From positions 1-43,298 of the forward strand of contig CAMCZF010000002.1 in assembly GCA_945885775.1 (NCBI GenBank): DNA of 43,298 nucleotides, in the 5' to 3' direction. Below, one piece after another: positions 27,496 through 43,298 of the stretch. The DNA comes from Rhodoferax sp. OV413 (lineage in GTDB: Bacteria; Pseudomonadota; Gammaproteobacteria; Burkholderiales; Burkholderiaceae_C). Position numbers and translations under genes: made by a program. The first letter of the stretch is position 1; every line of letters starts with the position of its first letter. The notes under the pieces are model-generated. The model saw only the letters and a program-made list of their open reading frames with translations, was not told the DNA's origin and searched no databases.

Positions 27496-28020
27496 TCAGT
27501 GAAAGGGGGCCTTGACGTATTTGGCACAAACACCTTTGATGATGTGCCTTCGGCCTCCGTCGCGGAAAGTGAGGGTTTGAACGAACGCACCGTCGCTCAA
27601 ATCCAGCGTGAACTCCTCTTGGGTGATCATCTGGCCAAAACGCTCAAACATGGCCGGTCTGCTCACAATCGCCTTGTTTCCATCCATGCGCAGCGCGCCC
27701 TTTCGCGACTCGGAAATTGAAAATTCGCCTTGGTACCAACCTGATTTACCCTGCTGGTCTAGTCCTGCCACCAAAAAATCCGTGTAAACCTTGGGCTCAG
27801 AGGTCAGGTTCCTTTGGGGCATGGAGACCGTAACCTCGCAAATAAAATTTCCATTTTTTTTGCTGTGCGTTTTGCTGTCTACCGCCAGCGGATCCGGCGC
27901 TGCCGAGGTCGGATCAGGGTTAAAGTTGAGCCAACCCAACTCAACCGTCAGCCAGAGTACCCCCAACGCTAAGACCACGGTAACCACAGCGGTGGAGAAA
28001 ATGACTTTCAAGTGGTTCAT
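27496..28020 (-). CDS. Uncharacterised single-TM/secreted protein
   Basis: N-terminal hydrophobic segment VIFSTAVVTVVLALGVLWLTV followed by a soluble region; start taken as MNHLKV. Confidence 0.6.
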   Translation of the reverse strand: MNHLKVIFSTAVVTVVLALGVLWLTVELGWLNFNPDPTSAAPDPLAVDSKTHSKKNGNFICEVTVSMPQRNLTSEPKVYTDFLVAGLDQQGKSGWYQGEFSISESRKGALRMDGNKAIVSRPAMFERFGQMITQEEFTLDLSDGAFVQTLTFRDGGRRHIIKGVCAKYVKAPFH

Positions 28021-28066
28021 TGGGTTGTCCAATCAGGAGCAAGAAATGAATTGGCGCGCCAACTGC

Positions 28067-29383
28067 CTAGTTCGTGATGATCTCGCGACCGTTGCGAGAC
28101 TGCACTGGCCGGGCGTTGGCATCAAACGGGAACTCAGCCACTTGCGCTGCAGAAACGTTTACCGTACTTTTCAAAATGAAGAAACGGACGCCTTCAGTAC
28201 AGGGCGGCGTTGTTAGCGATCCCTCGTAGCTAAAGAAATCAAATTCGCGGGGCAGCAGGCTGCCGGGATTGAACTTCACGCCCTCGGGCATGACCTCCGG
28301 GCCCTCTTTACGCGGCATGTTGGCCCATAGCGCTTTGATTCCCGGATTTTCATTGCCTTCTTTCAGGAAGACGCCCAGTACCACCAACTTGCCGTCACTT
28401 CCTTTATGCACAAAGTGCACCACCATCGACATGGGTTTGCCTTCAACTCTCTCCTCACTGGGTTTATGAAAATGAAATTGAAGCAGCTCATATGGCTTGG
28501 CGTCGATGCGCAGCTTACTGCCCGGCGGCACATTGACTTGAATGGTGTGCCCGTTGTTCACGATCTTTAACGGCCCCTCTTTGTAGTCAGCACTGACGCT
28601 GGTGCGAGCTTTCACAAAGGGTCCGACGATATCGAGCGGGGATTGTGATTTACCCTTGGCACAGGTCGGAAACTCCTTACCCCATCGGTCTGGCCCCATC
28701 TCGCCAGCATAGCCCCAGTGCGGAGCAGCATGGACTGCGGCATCTTTGGCTTTAACTGTCGAATCGCTGCCGTGGGCAGGCGCCTGACCCTGCGTGTCAG
28801 ATTTTGCAGGGGTATCTGCTCCGCCATGGGCTCCCTCGGGCTGGCACTCTGACATGACAGCCACTTTGTCGCCTGCCGCAGCCAAGGCGATTTGAGCGGC
28901 GCACATGGTGTTTTTCCGATTACCAAGATCGGTCAACTTGAGCGCAGTCCGAAACGCCTCCAGTGCAGCAGGGTCATCGCCCCCCTTGGTCAGCATGCGC
29001 AAAGCGCCCAGACCCACCTGACGCTCTGCCGACAGACTTTTTTGCGACTTGTATGCAGCCTCAAGGTCGGCCAATGTCGTACCGCTGGCCATGGCGGCCT
29101 TGATGGCCTCCAACTGATTGACCTTGGCCTGAAGTGGCGCCAATTGCGCCTTCAGGGCTGCTGACTGCTGTTCAGCTGCTGCAATGGCGCCTTGCGATGT
29201 AGCTGCCAGTTTGGCCGCCTCTTCAGAGGCGGCTTTTAGCTCGACCGCCTGGCTTTTGACCGTTTGAACTTGTTTCCAGTTCATCCAACCAAAAACACCT
29301 GCGCCAATCAGTCCGAGTGCCAACAAGACTTCAACAATGGTTCTTTTCACAAACGTCACCCACAGTAAAAACAACAAATACAC
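28067..29383 (-). CDS. Membrane-anchored coiled-coil protein with C-terminal alpha-class carbonic anhydrase domain
   Basis: N-terminal TM plus Ala/Gln-rich coiled coil; HWGYAGEMGPDRWG, KSQSPLDI, LLQFHFHKPSEE, MVVHFVHKGSDG, YEGSLTTPPCTEGVRFFIL. Confidence 0.9.
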   Translation of the reverse strand: MYLLFLLWVTFVKRTIVEVLLALGLIGAGVFGWMNWKQVQTVKSQAVELKAASEEAAKLAATSQGAIAAAEQQSAALKAQLAPLQAKVNQLEAIKAAMASGTTLADLEAAYKSQKSLSAERQVGLGALRMLTKGGDDPAALEAFRTALKLTDLGNRKNTMCAAQIALAAAGDKVAVMSECQPEGAHGGADTPAKSDTQGQAPAHGSDSTVKAKDAAVHAAPHWGYAGEMGPDRWGKEFPTCAKGKSQSPLDIVGPFVKARTSVSADYKEGPLKIVNNGHTIQVNVPPGSKLRIDAKPYELLQFHFHKPSEERVEGKPMSMVVHFVHKGSDGKLVVLGVFLKEGNENPGIKALWANMPRKEGPEVMPEGVKFNPGSLLPREFDFFSYEGSLTTPPCTEGVRFFILKSTVNVSAAQVAEFPFDANARPVQSRNGREIITN

Positions 29384-29554: not shown

Positions 29555-30424
29555 TTATTGATCCCCAGCAAAAGAGAACCCGCTTCCAGTGCCATCAACC
29601 AGCATAAGCATCAAACGCCTCGTCTTTCCTTCAAACAAAGACGGAAGGACGAAGGCAACGCCATTCAGAGAAGCAGCGTCTGTTCCTGGAGTACGCGGGC
29701 ACCCGGTTTGCGAAGGAATATCGGCGGACACAGAAAAATAGGGGCTATTGGCGGCGACAGCCCTGACAAGCCTTAGATGACGGACACAGCCACCAAATGT
29801 GACGGTCGCTGCGAGCCCCTGGTCAAACTGTAGAACTGCGGGCTTGTTGACGGAAGCATTGAGGTTGTCCGTCCAAACGCCATCCCATCGGCCACTGGCG
29901 TCTGCCAAGGTGGCCGATGCTGAGCTTGACAACTCAATCGGTCGATTATTTGGCGCATTGACGCCGGAAATGATGACACGATAGGTCCCCAGCGAGGTCT
30001 CAGACCAACTGCCACTGGCCGGTCGACTGATTGCAGCCGCTCCAAATTCGCGGATCAGGCCAGCGCTTGAGGTGCCGCTTGGCGCAAGGTTTACAGAGCC
30101 TGAGTAAAGGATCGGAATGATGTCCTCAGAGCTGGTGCTGAAGAAGTACATGGCATACCAATTGATGTCAGGTGCCAAGTCTGCCGTCATAAAAGTCACA
30201 AAATTCTTCTGATACAGCGTTCCCGAAGCTGCCCCGGCCAGCACGGCAGCCGCCGGTGGCGGGACCAGCGGCTGACCAACTGGCGCAGGGGTGACCGGAC
30301 TGTCTGACGTAATGCCACCACAGGCACATAGGCTAGCGACTAAGATCAGTGCCAGAGACCGAGGCACGACGCCGGTCACCAGACGATGTACAAGCCATGA
30401 AGTCAATTGAGACATCAGTTTCAT
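29555..30424 (-). CDS. Putative lipoprotein, uncharacterised
   Basis: Signal with candidate lipobox LVASLCACGG; start ATG overlaps the upstream gene stop (ATGA at 30421-30424). Confidence 0.6.
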   Translation of the reverse strand: MKLMSQLTSWLVHRLVTGVVPRSLALILVASLCACGGITSDSPVTPAPVGQPLVPPPAAAVLAGAASGTLYQKNFVTFMTADLAPDINWYAMYFFSTSSEDIIPILYSGSVNLAPSGTSSAGLIREFGAAAISRPASGSWSETSLGTYRVIISGVNAPNNRPIELSSSASATLADASGRWDGVWTDNLNASVNKPAVLQFDQGLAATVTFGGCVRHLRLVRAVAANSPYFSVSADIPSQTGCPRTPGTDAASLNGVAFVLPSLFEGKTRRLMLMLVDGTGSGFSFAGDQ

Positions 30425-31185
30425 TGTCGACCAGCCCTTGATTTGGATTTGACCCATCCGGCCTGCAGCCAATGACAATAGTGGCGGCTGTAGTGCCAAG
30501 CGATATGGTGTACCGTGGTCCCGGCAGGGAAAACCTCGGACGTCAGATGATCAAGCCATTCGCCCTCGGCCTCCAGTTGGCTCGCAAAAGGGGCCAACCC
30601 AGGGTCGATGGGCACACCAGCATCGCCAGAGACCATCTGGACCGCCCCGTCCTGCTTCAAGCTTTGAAAGGTCACCACTCTCTCGAGTACCCGCCCGGTA
30701 TGGCGGACCGCGCCAGAATAGGCGTCGTGCAGGCTGCCCCATTCCCGCCCCACCAGGTGCCGTTTGATCATGTCGAGGCAAGACGCAGTTTGATCCAAAG
30801 AGACGTGCATGAATCGCAACTGCCCCAACACATTGTCAAACAATACCGCCGCGTCCGCATGTGCAGCCAAAAGCGCTTGAAGTTCAGCAAGAGCATCCAC
30901 TGTGCCACAGTGCAGTTGTGTACCAGACCTCTTCAAGGCAGGTCCATGACGCCAGCGAAACAGCGGAGCAGCCCAGCGGTCTATGTCAAAGGTCGTGACT
31001 TTGTCAAACCTTTGCAACCAAGGACTCGGCATCATCCAACCGGCGCTGGCGCCGATGATGACCAGCTGACGGCTAGTCGGTTGTATTTGCTCGAGCCACT
31101 GCCTGATATGGTTGCAGGTACCCCCCCAGGCGCCTTGGCGGCGCCAGGCCCTGGCATGCCAAAGCGGGCCACCGGAGTGATTCAT
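30421..31185 (-). CDS. Uncharacterised class I SAM-dependent methyltransferase-like protein
   Basis: Motif I-like QLVIIGASAGW, acidic loop TTFDIDRWA, motif IV-like AAVLFDNVLGQLRF; ATGA overlap with fliJ at 31182-31185. Confidence 0.6.
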   Translation of the reverse strand: MNHSGGPLWHARAWRRQGAWGGTCNHIRQWLEQIQPTSRQLVIIGASAGWMMPSPWLQRFDKVTTFDIDRWAAPLFRWRHGPALKRSGTQLHCGTVDALAELQALLAAHADAAVLFDNVLGQLRFMHVSLDQTASCLDMIKRHLVGREWGSLHDAYSGAVRHTGRVLERVVTFQSLKQDGAVQMVSGDAGVPIDPGLAPFASQLEAEGEWLDHLTSEVFPAGTTVHHIAWHYSRHYCHWLQAGWVKSKSRAGRQ

Positions 31186-31625
31186 GCGGCCCTCGCCCGG
31201 TTGAACTGGATCATGCCCATTTCGTCCATACCGCGTTGTTCTCGGCGATTTTCGAAATTCCTGACGGCGAGCCGGTCGAGGTCTAACAATGACTGCATCT
31301 TCAAGCGCTGCGCCTCAGCCAACTGCGTGCGCTGCTCCAACACCTGCAAATACTGCCTTGTCTTGCCTATGTCGTTATCTACTCGAGTCTGTAGTGACTG
31401 CAGTTGAACCATGAACTGCCGATGATTTTGCACGGCCGACATGCCTGTGGCCGTGGTTAACTTTACAGCCTTGCAGCGGTATTCCTCGTACATCTGCGCA
31501 ATCCGTCCCTGGCTTGCTGACAAGGACTCAAGCAGTTGAAGGGTTTGACGGGTCTCGGCCCGGAGTTGCTTTACCGACAGTTCGGCTTTTATCTCCAATG
31601 CTGACCAGCAGGCACGTACTTTCAT
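31182..31625 (-). CDS. fliJ: Flagellar export protein FliJ
   Basis: Short coiled-coil protein immediately downstream of fliI; EYRCKAVKLTTATG...NRREQRGMDE. Confidence 0.85.
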   Translation of the reverse strand: MKVRACWSALEIKAELSVKQLRAETRQTLQLLESLSASQGRIAQMYEEYRCKAVKLTTATGMSAVQNHRQFMVQLQSLQTRVDNDIGKTRQYLQVLEQRTQLAEAQRLKMQSLLDLDRLAVRNFENRREQRGMDEMGMIQFNRARAA

Positions 31626-31637
31626 AGGGTCGTTCCT

Positions 31638-32963
31638 TTAGAGCTCCATCAACACACGAAGATCAACACGTGCTCGGTCTTCTCCCACGCCCGAATACAT
31701 GTCCTGCCGTAAAAAAGTTTCCATCGCTTCACGCATGGCAATCGCTTGGTCAATCTCGGGATTTGTGCCGGCCTGATAGGCGCCAACCTGAATCAAGTCA
31801 ACGTTTTGTTGGTAGAGGGACCACAGACGCCGGAATCGATTGGCCATTTTCAAATCTGCCGGCGAAAGCAGGTTCTGCATGACTCGCGAGATGGATCCAG
31901 TGAGCTCAATGGCCGGGTAATGAGCCGCGTCAGCGAGTTTCCTTGACAACATCACTTGGCCATCCAAAGAGGCACGAGCGATGTCAACAATGGGGTCGTT
32001 GCCGTCATCACCTTCTGCCAAAACCGTATAAATTGCTGTAATCGAGCCGTGGCCATGGCGGCCGACGCCAGCGCGCTCGATCAGGTTAGGCAACAAGGCG
32101 AACACGGAGGGGGGATAGCCCTTGGACGTCGGCGGCTCGCCAATCGCCAGCCCAATTTCTCGCTGCGCATGAGCAACTCGGGTCAAGCTGTCCACCAACA
32201 TCAGAACGTCTCGGCCCTGGTCCCGGAAATATTCGGCGACCACGTGCGACAAGTGTGCCGCCTTTAGTCGAAGCACGGGAGAAACATTAGCAGGCGCCGC
32301 AATCACAATGGATTTAGCGAGCCCCTCAGGACCCAAGGTCTCACTGATAAACGCCTGTACCTCTCGTCCACGCTCGCCAATCAGACCAATAACCACAATG
32401 TCAGCTTTGGTAAACCGGGTCAGCATACCCAGCAGAACGCTTTTGCCAACACCGGAGCCGGCGATAAGGCCGACCCTCTGCCCTCGCCCTAGCGTCAACA
32501 GGCCATTGATGGCTTTGACTCCGACATCCAGCACCCGGTCGATCGGCCCGCGCTCCATGGGATTCAGTGGCAGGCCTAAAAGCCCTAGCGTATCTGTACA
32601 AGCCGGCTGCGGCTTTCCGTCAAGCGGTTGCCCTCGCGCGTCAATTACCCGACCGAGCAGTTCTTCACCCACCAACACGTGGTCGGTGTCACTCAACACC
32701 CGCACCTTGTCGCCAGGGCCAATCCCTACCGGCTCTGTAAATGGCATCAAATAAATGGTGCTTTCAGCGAAGCCCACCACTTCCGCCTCAATCCGTTTGC
32801 CGCTCTGGCCAATCACCTCACAGCAGGCACCGACTGGTGCCATGATCCCGCGCGCCTCAAGCCTAAGACCCACCAAGCGAACCAGCGTGCCACTGCGCAC
32901 CGGTCGTTGGGTGTGTATTTTTGCAACGGCTTGATCGACCTCTGCGTCAAAATCAAACATCAT
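31638..32963 (-). CDS. fliI: Flagellum-specific ATP synthase FliI
   Basis: GLIAGSGVGKSVLLGML, VVIGLIGERGREVQAFI, DSLTRVAHAQREIGLAIGEPPTSKGYPPSVFALLPNLIERAG. Confidence 0.97.
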   Translation of the reverse strand: MMFDFDAEVDQAVAKIHTQRPVRSGTLVRLVGLRLEARGIMAPVGACCEVIGQSGKRIEAEVVGFAESTIYLMPFTEPVGIGPGDKVRVLSDTDHVLVGEELLGRVIDARGQPLDGKPQPACTDTLGLLGLPLNPMERGPIDRVLDVGVKAINGLLTLGRGQRVGLIAGSGVGKSVLLGMLTRFTKADIVVIGLIGERGREVQAFISETLGPEGLAKSIVIAAPANVSPVLRLKAAHLSHVVAEYFRDQGRDVLMLVDSLTRVAHAQREIGLAIGEPPTSKGYPPSVFALLPNLIERAGVGRHGHGSITAIYTVLAEGDDGNDPIVDIARASLDGQVMLSRKLADAAHYPAIELTGSISRVMQNLLSPADLKMANRFRRLWSLYQQNVDLIQVGAYQAGTNPEIDQAIAMREAMETFLRQDMYSGVGEDRARVDLRVLMEL

Positions 32964-33921
32964 CTTCTGCGCCTGAAACCAGGATACTTTGGGCTTCAAC
33001 AATGTCCGAGCCAGCGACCTGTGATCGAGCTCCTTGCGACGCTAATGGCTCGCCAAACAAGGCACGGTCACCCACCAAGGCGCTGCGGGTACGCCAACGC
33101 GGCTCATCAATCTGGAGACCTTGCGCCAGCGCACTGAGTCGCTCACCAATCAAGTCATCGACCAGAGCATCATTTGCACTGGCCCGTACGCTGCCGGGCT
33201 GCAGCGTCGCATTCGCCCGAACATTGGCGTCACTACTACCGCTCAAGCCACTACGTTCCTTCAATGTCCGCCATGCCTGCAGGTCGCTGGGATGCAACTC
33301 CACGCGGACCATCGACGCATCGTTCAGTGACAGTTCGTCTACACAGCGCTGCACGAGCCGGTCGATGGCAGATCCATCCAGCGCCAGTTCTGCCAAAACC
33401 AATTGCTCAGCCAAATGAAGAGATAGGCGTTTGATAGGCTCAAAAAAGACGGTCGGTCTTTGATGCAGAGCTTCCAGAGCCGTCTCGACGGCCTTGATCA
33501 GCGCGTGGTCCATAGCCAGTTGTCGGGCCAACTCACGACCCATCTCGTCCTGCAAAGCGGCGCGGGTATCCTGTGCCCCTTGCGCGTAGCCTTCGCCTCG
33601 AGCCTGCGCTAAGGCCGCTTCCGAAGCAACTGGCGTCTGCAATGACATAACGTCCGCTGCAGGCGCCTCTGGGACATCGGTAATCACTGCGCTGGCACCC
33701 TCAATGCCAGGTAAGGGCGGGGGGGGCAATAAGCGCAATGTCTGCAGGTCAAAGTCAACCAGATCAAACTGAGGCGCAACTTCCGTTTGCCACTTGGAAG
33801 GCATAAACCCGCCCGGCGGCGCCACCGGATGCAGTAAATCTACCGCCTGCCAAACACGAGCCGGCCGCACCACCAATTGGCGTGGGTTATTCGCTACAGA
33901 CACCGTCAGATGGTTAGACAT
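32953..33921 (-). CDS. fliH: Flagellar assembly protein FliH
   Basis: ARGEGYAQGAQDTRAALQDEMGRELARQL and FliH C-terminal region; position between fliG and fliI; start MSNHLTV at 33921. Confidence 0.88.
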   Translation of the reverse strand: MSNHLTVSVANNPRQLVVRPARVWQAVDLLHPVAPPGGFMPSKWQTEVAPQFDLVDFDLQTLRLLPPPPLPGIEGASAVITDVPEAPAADVMSLQTPVASEAALAQARGEGYAQGAQDTRAALQDEMGRELARQLAMDHALIKAVETALEALHQRPTVFFEPIKRLSLHLAEQLVLAELALDGSAIDRLVQRCVDELSLNDASMVRVELHPSDLQAWRTLKERSGLSGSSDANVRANATLQPGSVRASANDALVDDLIGERLSALAQGLQIDEPRWRTRSALVGDRALFGEPLASQGARSQVAGSDIVEAQSILVSGAEDDV

Positions 33922-34981
33922 AGTCGGCGCCGCCACCCAGTACCAAATCGCCTGCATCTGCCAGTTTGCGCGCCGTGCGCATGATGGTTTTTTGGGCAAG
34001 CTCAACGTCAGACAGGCGCATCGGGCCCTTAGCCTCCATGTCGTCCTTGAACATGCCGCGGGCACGTTCGGACATATTGCTGAAAAACTTGTCCTTAACC
34101 GGATCGCTAGCACCTTTGAGCGCAATCATCATCTGGTCTGGATCAACATTGCGCATAATGACCTGGATCCCTTTGTTGTCAACGCTGACCAAATTTTCAA
34201 AGGTGAACATGTTGTCCTGAATTTTTTGCATCAAGTCTGCATCCAGGGACCGCAGCCCGCCCATCACCGATGCCTCCAACGCAGATTTGGTGAGGTTCAA
34301 GATATTGGCGGCCGCTTTGATGCCGCCAAAACTTGAGGACTTGGCCGAGGAGTTATTGGAGAACTGCTTTTTCATGATGGCCTCAAGCTCTTCCATGGCA
34401 GAAGGCTGCACCGTCTCCAGCTTGGCCACGCGCTGTATCACTTCAGCGCGAGAATCTGGCGGTAAAAAATTCAGGACATCGGCTGCGACGACATTCTCCA
34501 ACACAGACAAGATAATGGCCACCACCTGAGGATGCTCCCCCTGAATCATGTCCGCAATAGATCTGGCATCCATCCAAGCCAATATGTCCAGCCCCTTGCT
34601 GCTATGTCCGGGGTTGATACGACCCAAAACAGAAGCAGCCTTGTCATTGCCCAATGCTCGCTTGAAGACTTTCTCCACATAATCGGCCGTGCCTAAACCC
34701 AAACTAGTTTGGCGCTTTATGGTGGCGACAAATTCATCGAGCACGGCGTTGACAGCCTCCTGAGAAAGTTCAGCGACCTGAACCATGGCCATGCCAAGCG
34801 CCTGGACCTCTTTTGGATTGAGGTAACGGATGATGTCGGCTGCCTGCTCTTCACCCAAAAGCAGCATCAATACCGCGGCACGTTGGGTGCTGGTAATACT
34901 TTGAAGCTCTCGTTGGAGCGCCTCATTGTTGACGCCTAATGGAGCGCCAAGTGTGCCAGCAATATTCGCTTCATCAGCCAT
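33914..34981 (-). CDS. fliG: Flagellar motor switch protein FliG
   Basis: STQRAAVLMLLLGEEQAADIIRYLNPKEVQALG; EHPQVVAIILSVLE; MFTFENLVSVDNKGIQVIMRNVD. Confidence 0.97.
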   Translation of the reverse strand: MADEANIAGTLGAPLGVNNEALQRELQSITSTQRAAVLMLLLGEEQAADIIRYLNPKEVQALGMAMVQVAELSQEAVNAVLDEFVATIKRQTSLGLGTADYVEKVFKRALGNDKAASVLGRINPGHSSKGLDILAWMDARSIADMIQGEHPQVVAIILSVLENVVAADVLNFLPPDSRAEVIQRVAKLETVQPSAMEELEAIMKKQFSNNSSAKSSSFGGIKAAANILNLTKSALEASVMGGLRSLDADLMQKIQDNMFTFENLVSVDNKGIQVIMRNVDPDQMMIALKGASDPVKDKFFSNMSERARGMFKDDMEAKGPMRLSDVELAQKTIMRTARKLADAGDLVLGGGADYV

Positions 34982-35003: not shown

Positions 35004-36911
35004 TCACCCCGGTTTGATCATGCCTTTGAATACGCTCGCTACACGCGCCGAATCGTCAGAAACGATCATGCGGATCAACGCAACTTTATCGTCGTAGGTA
35101 TTTGCTGTATCCAGCATTTCAGCGGAGATATTTGATTTCTTGGACTTCATTTTTGCTTTCATTTCCTCAAGCGTCTCCGAAGCTGATAGCTCCTTTTCAC
35201 CTACATCCTCTGCGGCCTGTGACTGGGCCTCCAGCGCCAATGCTTCGTTCTGTGCCAACTGCAGGTTGGTTGCCGCATTTTCTGCAGCCTCTTTGTCACG
35301 GTTAAGCAGGTGCATCACCACGGGACGAATCACCAGTAAGGAGAACAGGACAAACACCAAGCCAAGGAAAGCCGACTTGATGTTGGTGAGCACTGAGTCG
35401 TCTTTGTGCCAGGGCACTGTCAGATCAAGTGGCGCTTCTATTTCGAACTTTGCCTGGACAACGTTGACGACATCTTTGCGCGCTTCATCGAAGCCAACCA
35501 CGCCCTGCACCAGCTGTTGCATGCGCTCCACCTCCTCCTCCGTGTAGGGATTCGGCTTGGCAGGTTGCTCTTCACCCTTCTCATTCTTGGGCTGAGCGAC
35601 CGGCGGTCTTTCGTTGATCACAACGGCGACGCTCAGGCGCTGAACTGTCCCACTGGCGCTTTTAATGTGACGCACCGAGCGATCGATCTCATAATTACGG
35701 GTAGTTCGTGCTGCTACAGTTGTTCGCTCGTCGGCCGTTGCAGCCTGGGGCGCTGTTGCAGCGGTGTTGAGCGATGTTGTCGGTGCCGCTGGAGCAGTAT
35801 TTGACAAAGTTCCGGGGACGCCACTGGCCTCTTTAGCGCTGTTTCGGTCTTCGCTAGTCACCTCAGAGCGGGTCTTAGGGCCTTTCCCTTGAGTGTCAAA
35901 GTCTTCCAATGTGGTTTCGGTTTGACTGAAATCCAGCGTCAAATTAACCTGGGAACGGACATTGGCTTCACCCACAATTGGAGACAAGATCTGCATCACG
36001 CGCTGCCGGTAGAGTTCCTCCATAGCCTGCTTGTGCTTGGTCTGTCCAGCATTCATGCCCATTGAAGCGTCCGAATCTGCGTCAGTCATCAGCTTGCCAA
36101 CATTGTCAACCACCGTCACATTCTGAGGAGTAAGCAAGGGTACGCTGGAAGACACCAAATGAACAATCGCCTGTACCTGCGTCGGACTGACGCTGCGGCC
36201 ATTTTGCGGCGTCAAAACGACCGAGGCCTTGGGCGGCACACGGTCGCGCACAAAGACCGACGGCTTGCTGGTCGCCAGGTGAACTCGTGCAGACTGAATC
36301 GAATCAATCTGCTGGATACTGCGAGCCAACTCCTGTTCGACAGCAGAGGTGTAACGCACCTGCTCCATGAACTGGCTGGTCGTCATGGCGGACTGATCTT
36401 TCAGGCTATCCAATCCTGTCGCTGCTGTTTTTGGAAGACCCTTAGACGCAAGGAAGATCCGAGCCTCGTGGTAACGACTCACCGGTACAGTGATCTGACC
36501 CGTGCTGGAATCAATCACCGGCTTGAACTCTCCAGTTCGCAGTGCTTCAAAGACAGCCTGCTGATCCCCCTCGGTCGCACCCATGACAACCGGTCTGTAT
36601 TTAGGCGCATTCACCATGGTGTATGCCACCGCAAACAGTAACAACATCAGCGCAATCACGATCAAGGGCAGCGACTTCTTGACGGCTGGCTGACTCAAAA
36701 CCCCTTTAATCGGTCCAAACAGGCCTGCGCTATCGGTCAAGGCCACACCGCCACCAAGGTAATTGGTGCTCAGGCCAGTAGAGGCACCCCCCTGCCCTTC
36801 TGGATTTGTCCGGCGATCACGCCCGGACCTTGTGGTCAGTGCACGGACCTCTTCAGAACCCGGCATCAACGTGCCGTCTGGTGCAGTTGCGGTTGCGGTT
36901 GCAGTCGCCAT
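35004..36911 (-). CDS. fliF: Flagellar MS-ring protein FliF
   Basis: KSLPLIVIALMLLLFAVAYTMVNAPKYRPV; YHEARIFLASKGLPK; ELARSIQQIDSIQSARVHLATSKPSVFVRD. Confidence 0.97.
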   Translation of the reverse strand: MATATATATAPDGTLMPGSEEVRALTTRSGRDRRTNPEGQGGASTGLSTNYLGGGVALTDSAGLFGPIKGVLSQPAVKKSLPLIVIALMLLLFAVAYTMVNAPKYRPVVMGATEGDQQAVFEALRTGEFKPVIDSSTGQITVPVSRYHEARIFLASKGLPKTAATGLDSLKDQSAMTTSQFMEQVRYTSAVEQELARSIQQIDSIQSARVHLATSKPSVFVRDRVPPKASVVLTPQNGRSVSPTQVQAIVHLVSSSVPLLTPQNVTVVDNVGKLMTDADSDASMGMNAGQTKHKQAMEELYRQRVMQILSPIVGEANVRSQVNLTLDFSQTETTLEDFDTQGKGPKTRSEVTSEDRNSAKEASGVPGTLSNTAPAAPTTSLNTAATAPQAATADERTTVAARTTRNYEIDRSVRHIKSASGTVQRLSVAVVINERPPVAQPKNEKGEEQPAKPNPYTEEEVERMQQLVQGVVGFDEARKDVVNVVQAKFEIEAPLDLTVPWHKDDSVLTNIKSAFLGLVFVLFSLLVIRPVVMHLLNRDKEAAENAATNLQLAQNEALALEAQSQAAEDVGEKELSASETLEEMKAKMKSKKSNISAEMLDTANTYDDKVALIRMIVSDDSARVASVFKGMIKPG

Positions 36912-37330: not shown

Positions 37331-38830
37331 TCAGGCACTGGCCATCTGGCCAAGGCCATGGTCCCGAAGCTGCGCCAACTTGTAACGTAAAGTCCTAGGA
37401 CTGATCCCTAGTTTTTGGGCCGCTTCAACTCTGTTTCTCGAGGTCTCAAGCGCCGATCTAATGACGTGGTTTTCGCTTTGCTTCACCACTGCTTGCAACT
37501 TACTGCGACCGACCTGCTCCATGTCATCGCAGGCCAATGAGCCAGTCGGCTCCGAAGTCAATGGGTCCACTGGACATGGCAACTCAGTCGAGTCATGCAA
37601 CGCGGTGAGCAAGCCAACAGGATCTGGGGCGTCATCAAACAACAGATGGTGCTCGTCAATGTGATGGTCTGGGCATAGCACCATAGCCCGCTGCACCACG
37701 TTTTCTATCTCTCGGACGTTTCCTGGCCAGCCATATGACAGCAGACATGCTTGGGCAGCGGGGCTCACTGTCCAGGATTTATCGCCACGTTGGTGGCGCG
37801 ACAGGACCCGCGCAACGAGAGGCAAAACATCGCCGCGTCGCTCCGCGATCGACGGCACACGCAACTTGAATGTGCTCAACCGAAAATACAGATCCTCTCG
37901 GAATTCGCGACGCTCGATGGCCAAACGCAGATTTTTGTTGGTCGCAGCAATCACCCGAACATCTAAGGCGACAGAACGTTCACTGCCTAGTTTGACGAGG
38001 CTTCGCTCCTGCAAAACCCGCAATAGTTTGGCTTGAAGCGCAATAGGCAGGTCACCCACCTCATCCAGGAAAATTGTGCCGCCTTGCGCTTGTTCAAACA
38101 TGCCGCGATGGTCCTTGACCGCGCCAGTGAAAGCTCCTTTTTCATGGCCAAACAGCATGTCCTCAATCATGTGCTCAGGCAAAGCTGCACAATTCAAACC
38201 AATAAACGGACCGCTCTGTGACGGCGAGGATTCATGCAGTACACGCGCCAAAACTTCTTTACCAGAACCAGTAGGCCCTTCAAGCAGCACCGACACCTGC
38301 GCCTGAGCTACCCGTTGTGCCAAAGCGAGTAGCTTGATGCTGACCGGATCTACGAAAACCACACTTCGCACCGCATGCCTTGGCCTTGCTGCGTTATTCG
38401 AGGACTTTGATTGAACGGTGCTCACCAAGGGAGTGCGCCCAGCGATTGCGGCATCATCGGACCGGCCGTTCATGCAAAGTAGCGCATCTCGCCAAGCGTC
38501 GGCAGACCAGTCATCGGCAGCCAGAACATGACAAGCACCGTGGCGCATGGCAGCTACCGCCAGTTCGAGGTGCTTCCGCTCGACTCGGCAGATCACCACC
38601 AATTTTTCATGGGTGCGCCCGAACATTTCCCATGTTTCCTTCAACAACTCAATGTCAGAGCCCAAGCCCAAAATCAAAAGGGCAGGCTCATCGTCAAACC
38701 GTTTCAACGAGCTTGCCAAATCATCAAATGTGCGGACCAGGGAGATCGATACGCCTGCCTGATCCAACAGCGCTTGCTCGGTCGGCTTGAGCGAACGAAA
38801 GGGATCTAGCCAGAGGGCTGTGGAAGGCAT
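37331..38830 (-). CDS. Sigma-54-dependent flagellar transcriptional activator (FleQ/FlrC-like) with degenerate N-terminal receiver-like domain
   Basis: GPTGSGKEVLARVLHESS, GHEKGAFTGAVKDHRGMFEQA, WPGNVREIENVVQRA, C-terminal Fis-type HTH. Confidence 0.92.
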   Translation of the reverse strand: MPSTALWLDPFRSLKPTEQALLDQAGVSISLVRTFDDLASSLKRFDDEPALLILGLGSDIELLKETWEMFGRTHEKLVVICRVERKHLELAVAAMRHGACHVLAADDWSADAWRDALLCMNGRSDDAAIAGRTPLVSTVQSKSSNNAARPRHAVRSVVFVDPVSIKLLALAQRVAQAQVSVLLEGPTGSGKEVLARVLHESSPSQSGPFIGLNCAALPEHMIEDMLFGHEKGAFTGAVKDHRGMFEQAQGGTIFLDEVGDLPIALQAKLLRVLQERSLVKLGSERSVALDVRVIAATNKNLRLAIERREFREDLYFRLSTFKLRVPSIAERRGDVLPLVARVLSRHQRGDKSWTVSPAAQACLLSYGWPGNVREIENVVQRAMVLCPDHHIDEHHLLFDDAPDPVGLLTALHDSTELPCPVDPLTSEPTGSLACDDMEQVGRSKLQAVVKQSENHVIRSALETSRNRVEAAQKLGISPRTLRYKLAQLRDHGLGQMASA

Positions 38831-38988
38831 TATGTTGTCGCAATCTTGGAACGGTGTTAGTCGGATGCACGTCAATAACCGCCTCCTCTTCGCAAGACAT
38901 GTGCCAAGCTGTCTGTCGGCTTCCCGACAGTCTGAAATGCTGCTGGCAGGAGCCTGTTTGAATCTACCGAACTGGGATGAGTTTGGCG

Positions 38989-39077: not shown

Positions 39078-39596
39078 ATGTCTAACACCGCCTCTGCACT
39101 TCTTTCTGTCCTGTTCCTCATCACCAACCCCGTCAATGTTTTCGCGGGTCCTTGGGAGGAAGGCTACGCAGCCTACCAGCGCAAGGACTACGCCGCCGCG
39201 GTGCAGAAGTGGCAACTGGTCGCACAAACCGGTAAAGCAGAGGCGCAGTCCCTGGTGGGTCAAATGTATTTTTTTGGTCAAGGCGTTAAGCAGGACTATC
39301 CTCAGGCTATTGCTTGGATGAGTTTGGCAGCGGCTCAGGGAGAGGCCAAAGCCCAGTTCAAATTGGGCGCCATGCATGAAAATGGACAAGGATTTACCCG
39401 AGACCACGTCAAAGCGGCCATCTGGTACACGATGGCTGCCACTCAAGGCCACGCGACAGCCGGTGACGCATTGAAGCTGGTATCTGCAGGCTTGTCGACA
39501 AAAGAACTTGCTCTTGCCAGCCGTTTGGCTCAGACATGCACCAAGCGCGCCTTCAAGGACTGTGAATCAGTGTTTAGTCTCGGAACTTCACAGTAA
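39078..39596 (+). CDS. Sel1-like repeat protein with signal peptide
   Basis: Two Sel1-type repeats: AEAQSLVGQMYFFGQGVKQDYPQAIAWMSLAAAQG and AKAQFKLGAMHENGQGFTRDHVKAAIWYTMAATQG. Confidence 0.88.
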   Translation: MSNTASALLSVLFLITNPVNVFAGPWEEGYAAYQRKDYAAAVQKWQLVAQTGKAEAQSLVGQMYFFGQGVKQDYPQAIAWMSLAAAQGEAKAQFKLGAMHENGQGFTRDHVKAAIWYTMAATQGHATAGDALKLVSAGLSTKELALASRLAQTCTKRAFKDCESVFSLGTSQ

Positions 39597-40593
39597 TGCT
39601 GATCCGGCGATTGCGAGGGTCCTTGGGGTCGTTTGGGTTGTATGGCGCGGTATCGGAAACTCCCTCAATTTGAGTGAACCGGTCCGCCTTGATGCCGCTT
39701 TTCTCAAGCATTGCACGGGTAGATTCAGCCCGCTCAGCGGACAAAGACCAGTTATTGCGGCCATCTTTACTTGCAAATGCCAGGCTGTCAGTATGGCCGC
39801 GCACACTCAGCTTATTGTCGGTAGACGCCAACGAGCGGGCGATTTCAGTCATCAGCGCCTGTGCCTTGGGCTGCAGTTTGGTGCTGCCCAGCGGGAACAT
39901 GGCGAAGTCCGCTTTATCGATGACTTCGATTCGAAGTCCCTCTTTCTCACGGACAAACTGCACCTGCGTCTGAAGCTGCTCCAGGTTCGGATTTGCCGCA
40001 AGCTGCTCTTTCACTTCTTGCTCCATTTTGTCGAAGTTGGCCTTGTCGGCAGCTTCCGCAGCCTGCTTACCCTCCGCTTTTGTCTGCGCATCGTTGTCGC
40101 GCGCATTCTCGCTGTTAGGAGATGGCTCATTTTCAGTTGGCCCCCCCTCAGAGCGTGGTACCACCATCTGCATCATGGCAGTCTGTTTAGCCGTGTAGGG
40201 GAATCCATCTGGATCAATGATCGACCTGCCACCCAGAAGTCCGTTCGAGCCGGCCGTAGCACCCATTTGTACCTGCGCCGTCGAACTTGATGGATTGAAG
40301 TAATCGGCCACACTTTTTCTTTGTGTCTCCTGGCTTGCGCCCAAAATCCACATCAACAGGAAAAAGGCCATCATGGCTGTCATCATGTCAGCCAGCGCAA
40401 TCTTCCAGGCACCGCCATGCGCGCCACCGTGGCCCGGCATGATCTTCTTGATAACGATGATCGGCGCTAGTGCGGCAGTCCCCTCGGCGCTGGACGCCTC
40501 TGGCACAGCGGTTGGAACCAACGCCAGAGCCGGGGCTGGTGTTTCAGCCTCAGTCTCTAATGGAGCCTGTGCGACGGCGGCCTGAGTTGCCAT
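39574..40593 (-). CDS. motB: Flagellar motor protein MotB
   Basis: GAWKIALADMMTAMMAFFLLMWILG plug/TM; OmpA-like LSVRGHTDSLAFASKDGRNNWSLSAERAESTR. Confidence 0.95.
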   Translation of the reverse strand: MATQAAVAQAPLETEAETPAPALALVPTAVPEASSAEGTAALAPIIVIKKIMPGHGGAHGGAWKIALADMMTAMMAFFLLMWILGASQETQRKSVADYFNPSSSTAQVQMGATAGSNGLLGGRSIIDPDGFPYTAKQTAMMQMVVPRSEGGPTENEPSPNSENARDNDAQTKAEGKQAAEAADKANFDKMEQEVKEQLAANPNLEQLQTQVQFVREKEGLRIEVIDKADFAMFPLGSTKLQPKAQALMTEIARSLASTDNKLSVRGHTDSLAFASKDGRNNWSLSAERAESTRAMLEKSGIKADRFTQIEGVSDTAPYNPNDPKDPRNRRISITVKFRD

Positions 40594-40595
40594 GC

Positions 40596-41459
40596 TTACT
40601 TGCCACGCAATCCGTCGAATACGTCGGCGAAGCTAGGCTGATTGTTGTGGCTGATGGCCACCCGTGCTGCCTCGAGAATCAAGGGCATCGGGTGCCCGTG
40701 CATGGTGCCAATGATGATTTGCTTGACCACGTGGTACATGCAGGACTCATCTTCTATGATTTGCGCCAGGCGTTTAGCCCAGGGCTCAAAGAAACCATAG
40801 GCCAGAAACACCCCGATGAAGGTACCCACCAAGGCTGCACCGACCAAACCTCCCAAAATGGCAGGTGGTTGGTCGATGTTGTCCATGGTCTTCACCACGC
40901 CCATCACACAAGACACAATACCCAACGCCGGCAAGGCGCCCGCCAAGGTCCCAATGGCATCTGAAGCCTTCAGTTCATCGTGGTGATGCGTCTTTATTGC
41001 CGCATCCATCACCTCTTCCACAGCCAGTGGGCTAAGCGTTCCCTGAGACACCACCATCAACCTCACAGTGTCTGTAATGAGATGCAGCAAGGCGTGGTCT
41101 TTGAGAATATTGGGGTATTCGCTGAAAATTGTGCTTGACTCCGGTGTCTCAATGTGGGCCTCCAGCGCCACACCACCCTCGCTCTTGAGGGTTTTCATCA
41201 CTTTCGAGACACAAAATATGGTGTTAAGGTAATCCTGCTTCTTATATTTCGAGCCTTTGAAGGTTCGCCCGATACCGGCAAAAACCGCCTTGACCACGTC
41301 AGGACTATTCCCGATGATCATGCCGCCAATCGCCGACCCCAAAATACACCAGCCCTCGATAGGCGCTGCATGAATAAAAGTCCCCAGCGTTCCTCCACCG
41401 ACGATGTAGCTGCCGAACACGCAAACAATTACGAAAATGATCCCGACAATACCGCCCAT
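40596..41459 (-). CDS. motA: Flagellar motor stator protein MotA
   Basis: VGIIFVIVCVFGSYIVGGG; LPALGIVSCVMGVVKTM; YGFFEPWAKRLAQIIEDE. Confidence 0.96.
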   Translation of the reverse strand: MGGIVGIIFVIVCVFGSYIVGGGTLGTFIHAAPIEGWCILGSAIGGMIIGNSPDVVKAVFAGIGRTFKGSKYKKQDYLNTIFCVSKVMKTLKSEGGVALEAHIETPESSTIFSEYPNILKDHALLHLITDTVRLMVVSQGTLSPLAVEEVMDAAIKTHHHDELKASDAIGTLAGALPALGIVSCVMGVVKTMDNIDQPPAILGGLVGAALVGTFIGVFLAYGFFEPWAKRLAQIIEDESCMYHVVKQIIIGTMHGHPMPLILEAARVAISHNNQPSFADVFDGLRGK

Positions 41460-41580
41460 GGTAGATTCCTAAAAGAATGAGTGATTACTCAATAAAATCG
41501 GTACCTAGCCCGCCGGCAAGGGTCCGCCGAAAACTAAAACCTAAACGTCACACTCACCCCAAAGAAACCTCCTTACCAAC

Positions 41581-41997
41581 TCACTGCAGTCGCGCGCTGG
41601 CATGACGTTGTAATTGCACCGGCACTTCCAGCCAAGCAGCCCTTATTTCAGATGTCAGCCCCAAGACTTCGTTCAGCGCATCAATATCACTCCGCGCGTT
41701 GGCATAAATTAGCCGCCGAGTGAAATAGTTATAAAGGTCGTTCAGGTTGAGCGCCAATTCACCGCCTTTTTGAAAATCAAGAACCCCCTGCAAACCCAGC
41801 ACGATCCGACATGCCCGGGTAATACTCTTCCCTTTTTCTAAAATGGCTCCGTGTTCAATGTGACCACGTGCCTCAGCTATGCTGTTCACAAGCCCGTCAA
41901 ACAGCATCTGAATCAACTCCGCACCGTCTGCAACCGAAGCCTGAGACATCAAATTGTCAGCCCCGTAGGACTCCATGGCTTTGAAGTTGATCCGCAT
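41581..41997 (-). CDS. fliS: Flagellar chaperone FliS
   Basis: ELIQMLFDGLVNSIAEARGHIEHG...LQGVLDFQKGGELALNLNDLYNYFTRRL. Confidence 0.93.
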   Translation of the reverse strand: MRINFKAMESYGADNLMSQASVADGAELIQMLFDGLVNSIAEARGHIEHGAILEKGKSITRACRIVLGLQGVLDFQKGGELALNLNDLYNYFTRRLIYANARSDIDALNEVLGLTSEIRAAWLEVPVQLQRHASARLQ

Positions 41998-42072
41998 TTT
42001 CTAATCTCCTGATAAGTTGGCTTACCCTTCAGAAGTCGACAGAAGCAAGAAAAACTTGAGCACCAACAAGCA

Positions 42073-42816
42073 TCAAACCGCAGCGGCCCTTTTAACCAAC
42101 GGCTTGGGGGCCACCTCAATCTTCAGACTGATCCGCAATTTTTTAACAATCCCACTTAAGAGCTGGCTAGCGCGTGACTCCGTTACCCCTAGCGTCGCCC
42201 CAATTTCTTTCAAGTTGAGCTCTTCCACATAGTAGAGGGACATGAGCAACTGATCACTTTGCTGAAGTTCCGCAATCGCATCCCCAACAGCCCGCATGAA
42301 ATCCCGATGTTCTGCGATCGCATCCGGCTGGCGCGACCGGTCATCAGCGATTCCCATGACCTCATCTGTGATCAGTTCCATAGATTGGGTCTCAAAGCGC
42401 TTGGCATTCCCCCGCTTTTTTTGGAAGACATCCAGGTCTTCACCCATGTGCTCCGCCAATTCTGCTTGTGTAGGTGCTCGGCCCAGTTCAGTAAAGAGTG
42501 CCGTTTTGGCCTTGTTTTCAGAGCTGTTAAACGCAACGGCAGACCTGGGCAGATAAGACAATTGGCGCACTTCATCAAGCATCGCGCCACGCACTCGACT
42601 AAGAGCAAAGCTCTCAAAGTCAATACCTTTGGCCGGAACAAATGCACGCGCGGCCTCCAGCAAGCCAATCATTCCGACCTGAATCAACTCATCCAGTTCC
42701 ATGAAGGGCGGCACCCTGACCTTCAGATGCAATGCCACGCGTTTGACCATTCCCAAATGCGCCAGCACCAAGGTTTCGCTGCTACTCTGCACTTCCTCGT
42801 ACATTCTGGTCGTCAT
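42073..42816 (-). CDS. fliA: RNA polymerase sigma factor for flagellar operon FliA (sigma-28)
   Basis: MVKRVALHLKVRVPPFMELDELIQVGMIGLLEAARAF; LSLYYVEELNLKEIGATLGVTESRASQLLS. Confidence 0.95.
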   Translation of the reverse strand: MTTRMYEEVQSSSETLVLAHLGMVKRVALHLKVRVPPFMELDELIQVGMIGLLEAARAFVPAKGIDFESFALSRVRGAMLDEVRQLSYLPRSAVAFNSSENKAKTALFTELGRAPTQAELAEHMGEDLDVFQKKRGNAKRFETQSMELITDEVMGIADDRSRQPDAIAEHRDFMRAVGDAIAELQQSDQLLMSLYYVEELNLKEIGATLGVTESRASQLLSGIVKKLRISLKIEVAPKPLVKRAAAV

Positions 42817-42829
42817 CAGGGCCAACTCC

Positions 42830-43298
42830 TTAGGCTTGGTAGCGCACGAGGCGCTCGACAAAAAACTGCATCCCGCCAGCGAAGTCGCCTGCACGAGGCA
42901 ACTGCGCGACTGTTTTTGCCAAACGCTTGAAATCTCGAGACCCGGCTGATTCAGGCGCAAATTCAATGACGGGTTGAAATTTTCTATGACTAGCCAAGAT
43001 CTGGTCGTCGTTTTCAATCGAACCCAAATACTTCGTGGTGTAGTTCAAGAACTGCGCGCAAACCTGATTGATTCGTCGAAACAGGTTTTGTCCACCCGCC
43101 TGATTTTTGACCGCGTTGGGAATGATATATATTTCATTAAGATTCTGTTCCTGAATCAGCACTTTGATCATGCCGTACGCATCCGCAATCGACGATGGAT
43201 CATCGCGAACCACAATAAAGCGCCGCTGACAGGCACCCATAAAGGCTAGCACCGACGGCGATATACCGGCCGCCATATCAACCACCAAGTAATCGATG
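42830..43298 (-). CDS. flhG: MinD-like ATPase FlhG/FleN, C-terminal part (truncated by right window edge)
   Basis: Frame open to window end (IDYLVVDMAAGISPSVLAFMGACQRRFIVVRDDPSSIADAYGMIKVL); adjacent to fliA. Confidence 0.85.
   Translation of the reverse strand, partial: IDYLVVDMAAGISPSVLAFMGACQRRFIVVRDDPSSIADAYGMIKVLIQEQNLNEIYIIPNAVKNQAGGQNLFRRINQVCAQFLNYTTKYLGSIENDDQILASHRKFQPVIEFAPESAGSRDFKRLAKTVAQLPRAGDFAGGMQFFVERLVRYQA

Follow-up and report, generated by a model that had tools for sequence, protein, structure and literature searches.

What does the gene that overlaps the end of fliJ in this flagellar operon encode, and which process in the cell does it serve? The window analyzed here (the whole stretch of 43,298 nucleotides, from Rhodoferax sp. 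OV413) carries a flagellar cluster in which fliJ, a gene for a 254-aa protein (here termed MT), and a lipoprotein gene (here termed LIP) come after fliF, fliG, fliH, and fliI, with a sigma-54 activator, motB, motA, fliS, and fliA upstream (Table 1). As an earlier sequence-only reading had described, the three genes are chained by two ATGA overlaps: the TGA of fliJ lies inside the ATGA that opens MT, and the start codon of LIP is the ATG at 30424. Neither the fliJ/MT nor the MT/LIP junction contains a consensus terminator.

Table 1. Features of the MT locus and its flagellar surroundings (positions in the window).
Feature	Position	Strand	Remarks
178-aa protein, function unassigned	27496..28032	-	frequent next gene after the carbonic anhydrase
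alpha-carbonic anhydrase, membrane-anchored	28067..29383	-	PF00194, E=1e-37; conserved downstream member of the cluster
LIP, lipoprotein, 289 aa	29555..30424	-	lipobox cysteine is residue 35; predicted all-beta; cysteine pair C213/C242
ATGA overlap, MT/LIP	30421..30424	-	read from the sequence
MT, 254 aa	30421..31185	-	predicted class I SAM-methyltransferase fold; outside described families
ATGA overlap, fliJ/MT	31182..31185	-	read from the sequence
fliJ, 147 aa	31182..31625	-	flagellar export chaperone; PF02050, 28.6 bits, barely over the cut-off
fliI, export ATPase	31638..33002	-	PF00006, E=3e-78; T3SS_ATPase_C
fliH	32953..34125	-	gene order; conserved in tblastn; true start probably within the ORF
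fliG	33914..34981	-	FliG_N/M/C
fliF	35004..36911	-	YscJ_FliF
sigma-54 activator of the flagellar cluster	37331..38875	-	PF00158, E=2e-64
motB, motA, fliS, fliA, same flagellar cluster	39574..43017	-	annotation

Conservation of the fliJ-MT junction and its neighbors

Relatives of MT were sought in a GTDB-based collection, where 109 were found and 80 loci were retained. MT lies immediately 3' of fliJ on the same strand in 65 of the 80, which agrees with the expectation that it would be conserved beside fliJ in relatives, and the overlap is exactly four bases (-4) in 54 of these 65; position and overlap both hold across Comamonadaceae. Since operon genes commonly overlap by ATGA, a single instance carries little weight; the fliJ/MT overlap is meaningful through its conservation. 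The -4 junction between MT and LIP also recurs in several relatives (e.g., L023 and L038). Elsewhere, the contig starts at MT (2/80 loci), MT is convergent with the adjoining fliJ (2/80), or MT stands amid unrelated genes (11/80, all in one Limnohabitans-type group). All counts in this study come from related genomes, many of them MAGs, and are not independent events, so kinship inflates them; within an operon, moreover, co-occurrence is partly linkage by construction.

The sequence-only reading had drawn attention to fliK not following fliJ, and this is true of the layout. As a sign of anything further it fails, because in the same genome a FliK-domain protein heads the fliKLMNOPR-flhB operon beside flhA on another contig (C32, locus L120), and this operon belongs to the same flagellar type. 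The absence of fliK behind fliJ is therefore a matter of operon layout only, and the idea that fliK is missing was rejected.

The same reading treated MT and LIP as one system and guessed that they might act on flagellin or the envelope; the carbonic anhydrase gene downstream was absent from it. This pairing is not sustained by the relatives. A LIP homolog is detectable in only ∼40 of 67 operon-type loci, whereas the carbonic anhydrase gene, the more constant neighbor, is present in 61 of the 67, the other six contigs ending within ∼1 kb of MT. The conserved unit takes in the downstream carbonic anhydrase gene as well. LIP evolves rapidly, and over a third of the loci that keep MT have either no LIP or none that can be recognized. 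The dN/dS ratios (MT ∼0.13–0.15, LIP 0.22–0.27, FliJ 0.07–0.14, carbonic anhydrase 0.06–0.07, FliI ∼0.04) point to purifying selection on both MT and LIP, less strong on the latter.

LIP, encoded in the fliJ-MT operon, is probably a lipoprotein of the envelope. It has an N-terminal lipoprotein signal, its lipobox cysteine is invariant in an alignment of 36 homologs, and its second cysteine pair is conserved in the same alignment. The AF2 model is all-beta (pLDDT 78), and a fold search returned weak matches to small beta-barrel or lipocalin-like proteins (best E 2e-3, TM 0.2–0.3), none of them significant; there was no family match in Pfam or NCBIfam. The carbonic anhydrase is built of an N-terminal hydrophobic segment, a spacer, and the carbonic anhydrase (CA) domain. 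Its HxHxPSE zinc-site motif is intact in all 35 of the carbonic anhydrase ORFs checked in relatives. The 178-aa protein encoded behind it has no family match and is conserved in that position in many relatives.

Predicted fold and SAM site of MT

MT has no match in Pfam, NCBIfam, PADLOC, or PHROGs, and a profile search of solved structures gave matches at chance level (best E 0.27; a stretch of motif I in the methyltransferase CalS10 reached E 0.97). An origin as a mobile or defense gene was rejected on the lack of any PADLOC, PHROGs, or plasmid match. The AlphaFold2 model, computed from an alignment of 62 sequences, has a pLDDT of 90 and a pTM of 0.89, and its Rossmann-like alpha/beta arrangement, with the strand order and the C-terminal antiparallel hairpin, follows the pattern of class I methyltransferases. 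When this model was searched with Foldseek, the top 50 PDB matches, with E between 1e-5 and 3e-4 and modest TM-scores of 0.3–0.5, were all SAM methyltransferases or other SAM-binding enzymes. These matches include the solved structures of CyaF, NNMT, GNMT, and KsgA, which resemble MT in overall fold and in the placement of the SAM-site motifs but share only ∼9–16% identity with it, and which differ from it in its GxSxG motif I without the beta1 acid and in its own invariant tryptophan and histidine residues.

The alignment further supports, on computational grounds, the earlier suggestion of a methyltransferase-like protein with a SAM pocket. A glycine-rich loop, G45-x-S47-x-G49, follows beta1 in 62/62 rows; after beta2, position 67 is acidic (58 D, 4 E) and D69 is invariant (62/62); D97 follows beta3 in 53/62; and N118-[VL]-L-G-Q follows beta4 in 62/62. 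In motif I, the acid with which beta1 usually ends is missing, and all 62 rows have L, I, or V at position 43. Such an acid is common in class I SAM methyltransferases, and not universal. Its loss would suit a catalytically dead methyltransferase fold with an adaptor or regulatory role in export or flagellar number, as would the location of MT among export genes and the existence of some genomes that have the same flagellar system (system B, below) and lack MT. A dead pocket, however, would need none of GxSxG, the acid after beta2, D97, or N-x-L-G-Q, and these are kept (D97 in most) in very divergent members, so we regard such a loss of activity as quite improbable. MT looks, from its modeled fold and these motifs, like an active methyltransferase. 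Further invariants specific to the family (H10, W20, W149, H153, S157, H213, W230, and H238) are likely to give the substrate site its shape.

Two known methyltransferases linked to motility were compared with MT. CheR is a SAM methyltransferase linked to motility; MT sits beside export genes rather than chemotaxis genes, and identity with CheR was rejected, as none of the 62 members has a CheR Pfam domain match. FliB, the flagellin lysine methyltransferase of Salmonella, has an N-terminal CX4CX3CC motif holding a [4Fe-4S] cluster and no recognized Rossmann domain (PMC8598068). MT is likewise flagellum-associated and, by prediction, SAM-using and cytosolic, and may be a functional parallel; unlike FliB it has a predicted class I Rossmann fold, and it has no counterpart of CX4CX3CC and no invariant cysteine in the 62 rows, which excludes it from the FliB family.

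Association of MT with one flagellar lineage

We use system B as a label for the flagellar lineage whose FlhA falls in one clade of the FlhA tree. The trees were quick ones with SH-aLRT support only, and two rows on very long branches (L155 and L157) were kept out of all conclusions. One clade, with 21 rows and 99% support, holds one FlhA copy from each included Comamonadaceae-type MT genome and also takes in genomes whose MT has left the operon; second FlhA copies, where present, group elsewhere, mostly with the FlhA of genomes without MT. FlhA was found in 38/38 MT genomes tested, compared with 279/399 genomes of the order sample and 119/151 of the family sample. Among 61 sampled genomes of the window's genus, the ten with MT are exactly the ten with a system-B flhA, and seven of these ten also hold another full flhA type; FlhA proteins of the genomes without MT, where checked and including partial ones, are at most 53% identical to that of system B. 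System-B FlhA occurs in six of the 151 genomes of the family sample (at least 72% identity, the next full-length match being 52%), and MT is present in three of these six versus none of the other 145 (Fisher p = 4e-5, uncorrected for kinship). One genome (G020) has MT and the system-B flhA on a single contig, ∼14 kb apart. On this distribution, MT marks one flagellar lineage, system B, of freshwater Comamonadaceae, a tighter link to one flagellar type than the sequence-only reading could have drawn.

MT is lacking, and something else stands behind fliJ, in three system-B genomes that are close to complete (G955, G294, and G876); MT is therefore not essential for the system-B flagellum. In relatives that have no MT behind fliJ (L208:4572-5561, L213:6332-7288, and L215:5983-7008), a different secreted protein, with the motif WPTxPFxRGxDLCQYQDxY and no Pfam match, is encoded there instead. 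The window's own genome (G000) has two distinct flagellar flhA genes, ∼48% identical, on contigs C32 and C28 (L120 and L121), and one type only goes with the window's operon. Three Limnohabitans-type genomes (G472, G474, and G473; loci L057, L066, and L067) likewise carry two flhA copies each; both copies pass the FlhA cut-off in G472 and G473, and their second copy groups with family f18 in a divergent clade.

MT is also found away from fliJ. In the MT tree, the relocated Limnohabitans group (100%) is nested in a 99% clade of otherwise fliJ-operon members, which means that MT moved out of the operon and was retained. Genome G459 of this group still has the carbonic anhydrase gene behind fliJ in its fliJ operon, without MT there. 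In family f18, MT lies just upstream of flhA, and one genome has a flagellin gene a few kb upstream of MT. The gene at L118:793-3312, which precedes MT and flhA by a few kb, encodes an 839-aa flagellin whose N- and C-terminal flagellin domains are separated by an inserted C-type lectin domain. The farthest homologs (family f44, G775) are found next to dnaJ or in other non-flagellar loci, in genomes that are flagellated, and in one of these motAB lies ∼4 kb from the MT homolog. In the window's genome, the system-B fliK-flhB region ends with genes for a Sel1-repeat and a DnaJ-domain protein (L120:15727-18392); distant MT homologs elsewhere adjoin a Sel1-type gene or dnaJ, a likeness that is possibly due to chance.

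These displaced copies bear on whether MT serves the cell more generally, for instance in RNA or translation, and rides as a passenger in the flagellar operon. The dnaJ neighbors, the unrelated surroundings of MT in the Limnohabitans group, and the rRNA methyltransferase KsgA among the fold matches are in keeping with such a role. A general function fits poorly, though, with the lack of MT in most flagellated and all sampled unflagellated relatives, with its tracking of one flagellar lineage, and with its occurrence in three separate flagellar positions; we give it a low probability.

Candidate substrates and significance

Tentatively, and with somewhat less than even confidence, we favor MT as a cytosolic class I SAM methyltransferase dedicated to the system-B flagellum of freshwater Burkholderiales, where it would methylate a flagellar protein. 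MT would be made jointly with FliH, FliI, and FliJ via translational coupling, and would move a methyl group from SAM to a system-B flagellar protein, either an exported subunit such as flagellin or a component of the export apparatus, before or during export. The substrate is the least certain part of this proposal; a flagellar protein is favored on two grounds, the coupling of MT to the export proteins and the lack of any recognized glycan-synthesis gene nearby.

In Enterobacterales, the variable regions of flag-2 loci hold methyltransferases of several families beside glycosylation genes, namely FkbM or Pfam Methyltransf_11/12/23/24/25 (PMC6993521). As with MT, these are methyltransferase genes in a secondary flagellar locus, and by analogy with the role proposed for them MT could methylate a small molecule or sugar, such as a nucleotide sugar for glycosylation of the system-B flagellin; many of its best fold matches (NNMT, GNMT, and CyaF) are indeed small-molecule methyltransferases. 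MT, however, matches none of the flag-2 families, and its gene is coupled with fliJ. In the annotated flagellar stretches neither a glycosyltransferase nor a sugar-synthesis gene was recognized, and the conserved partners of MT are fliHIJ, LIP, and the carbonic anhydrase gene. A substrate of this kind is, in our view, unlikely.

The preferred reading, methylation of a flagellar protein, can be extended to a doubtful but more specific proposal: that MT represents a new family of flagellum-dedicated protein methyltransferases, unrelated to FliB, which would modify a subunit or export component of one flagellar lineage and work with a periplasm-facing module of the same operon, consisting of LIP and the anchored carbonic anhydrase. 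A carbonic anhydrase gene inside a flagellar operon is unexpected in itself. Our literature search on methyltransferases linked to fliJ, carbonic anhydrases of flagella, and second flagellar systems in these genera turned up nothing relevant.

To our knowledge, few flagellum-dedicated methyltransferases have been described, and the chemistry of FliB differs from that predicted for MT. MT and its relatives constitute an undescribed, conserved enzyme family encoded in flagellar operons of bacteria that abound in fresh water (Limnohabitans, Rhodoferax, Polaromonas, and Curvibacter relatives). System B often stands beside another flagellar system in one cell, and MT thus offers a handle on why these cells have two flagella and how the two differ. 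The bacteria that carry MT probably methylate something while building or tuning the system-B flagellum.
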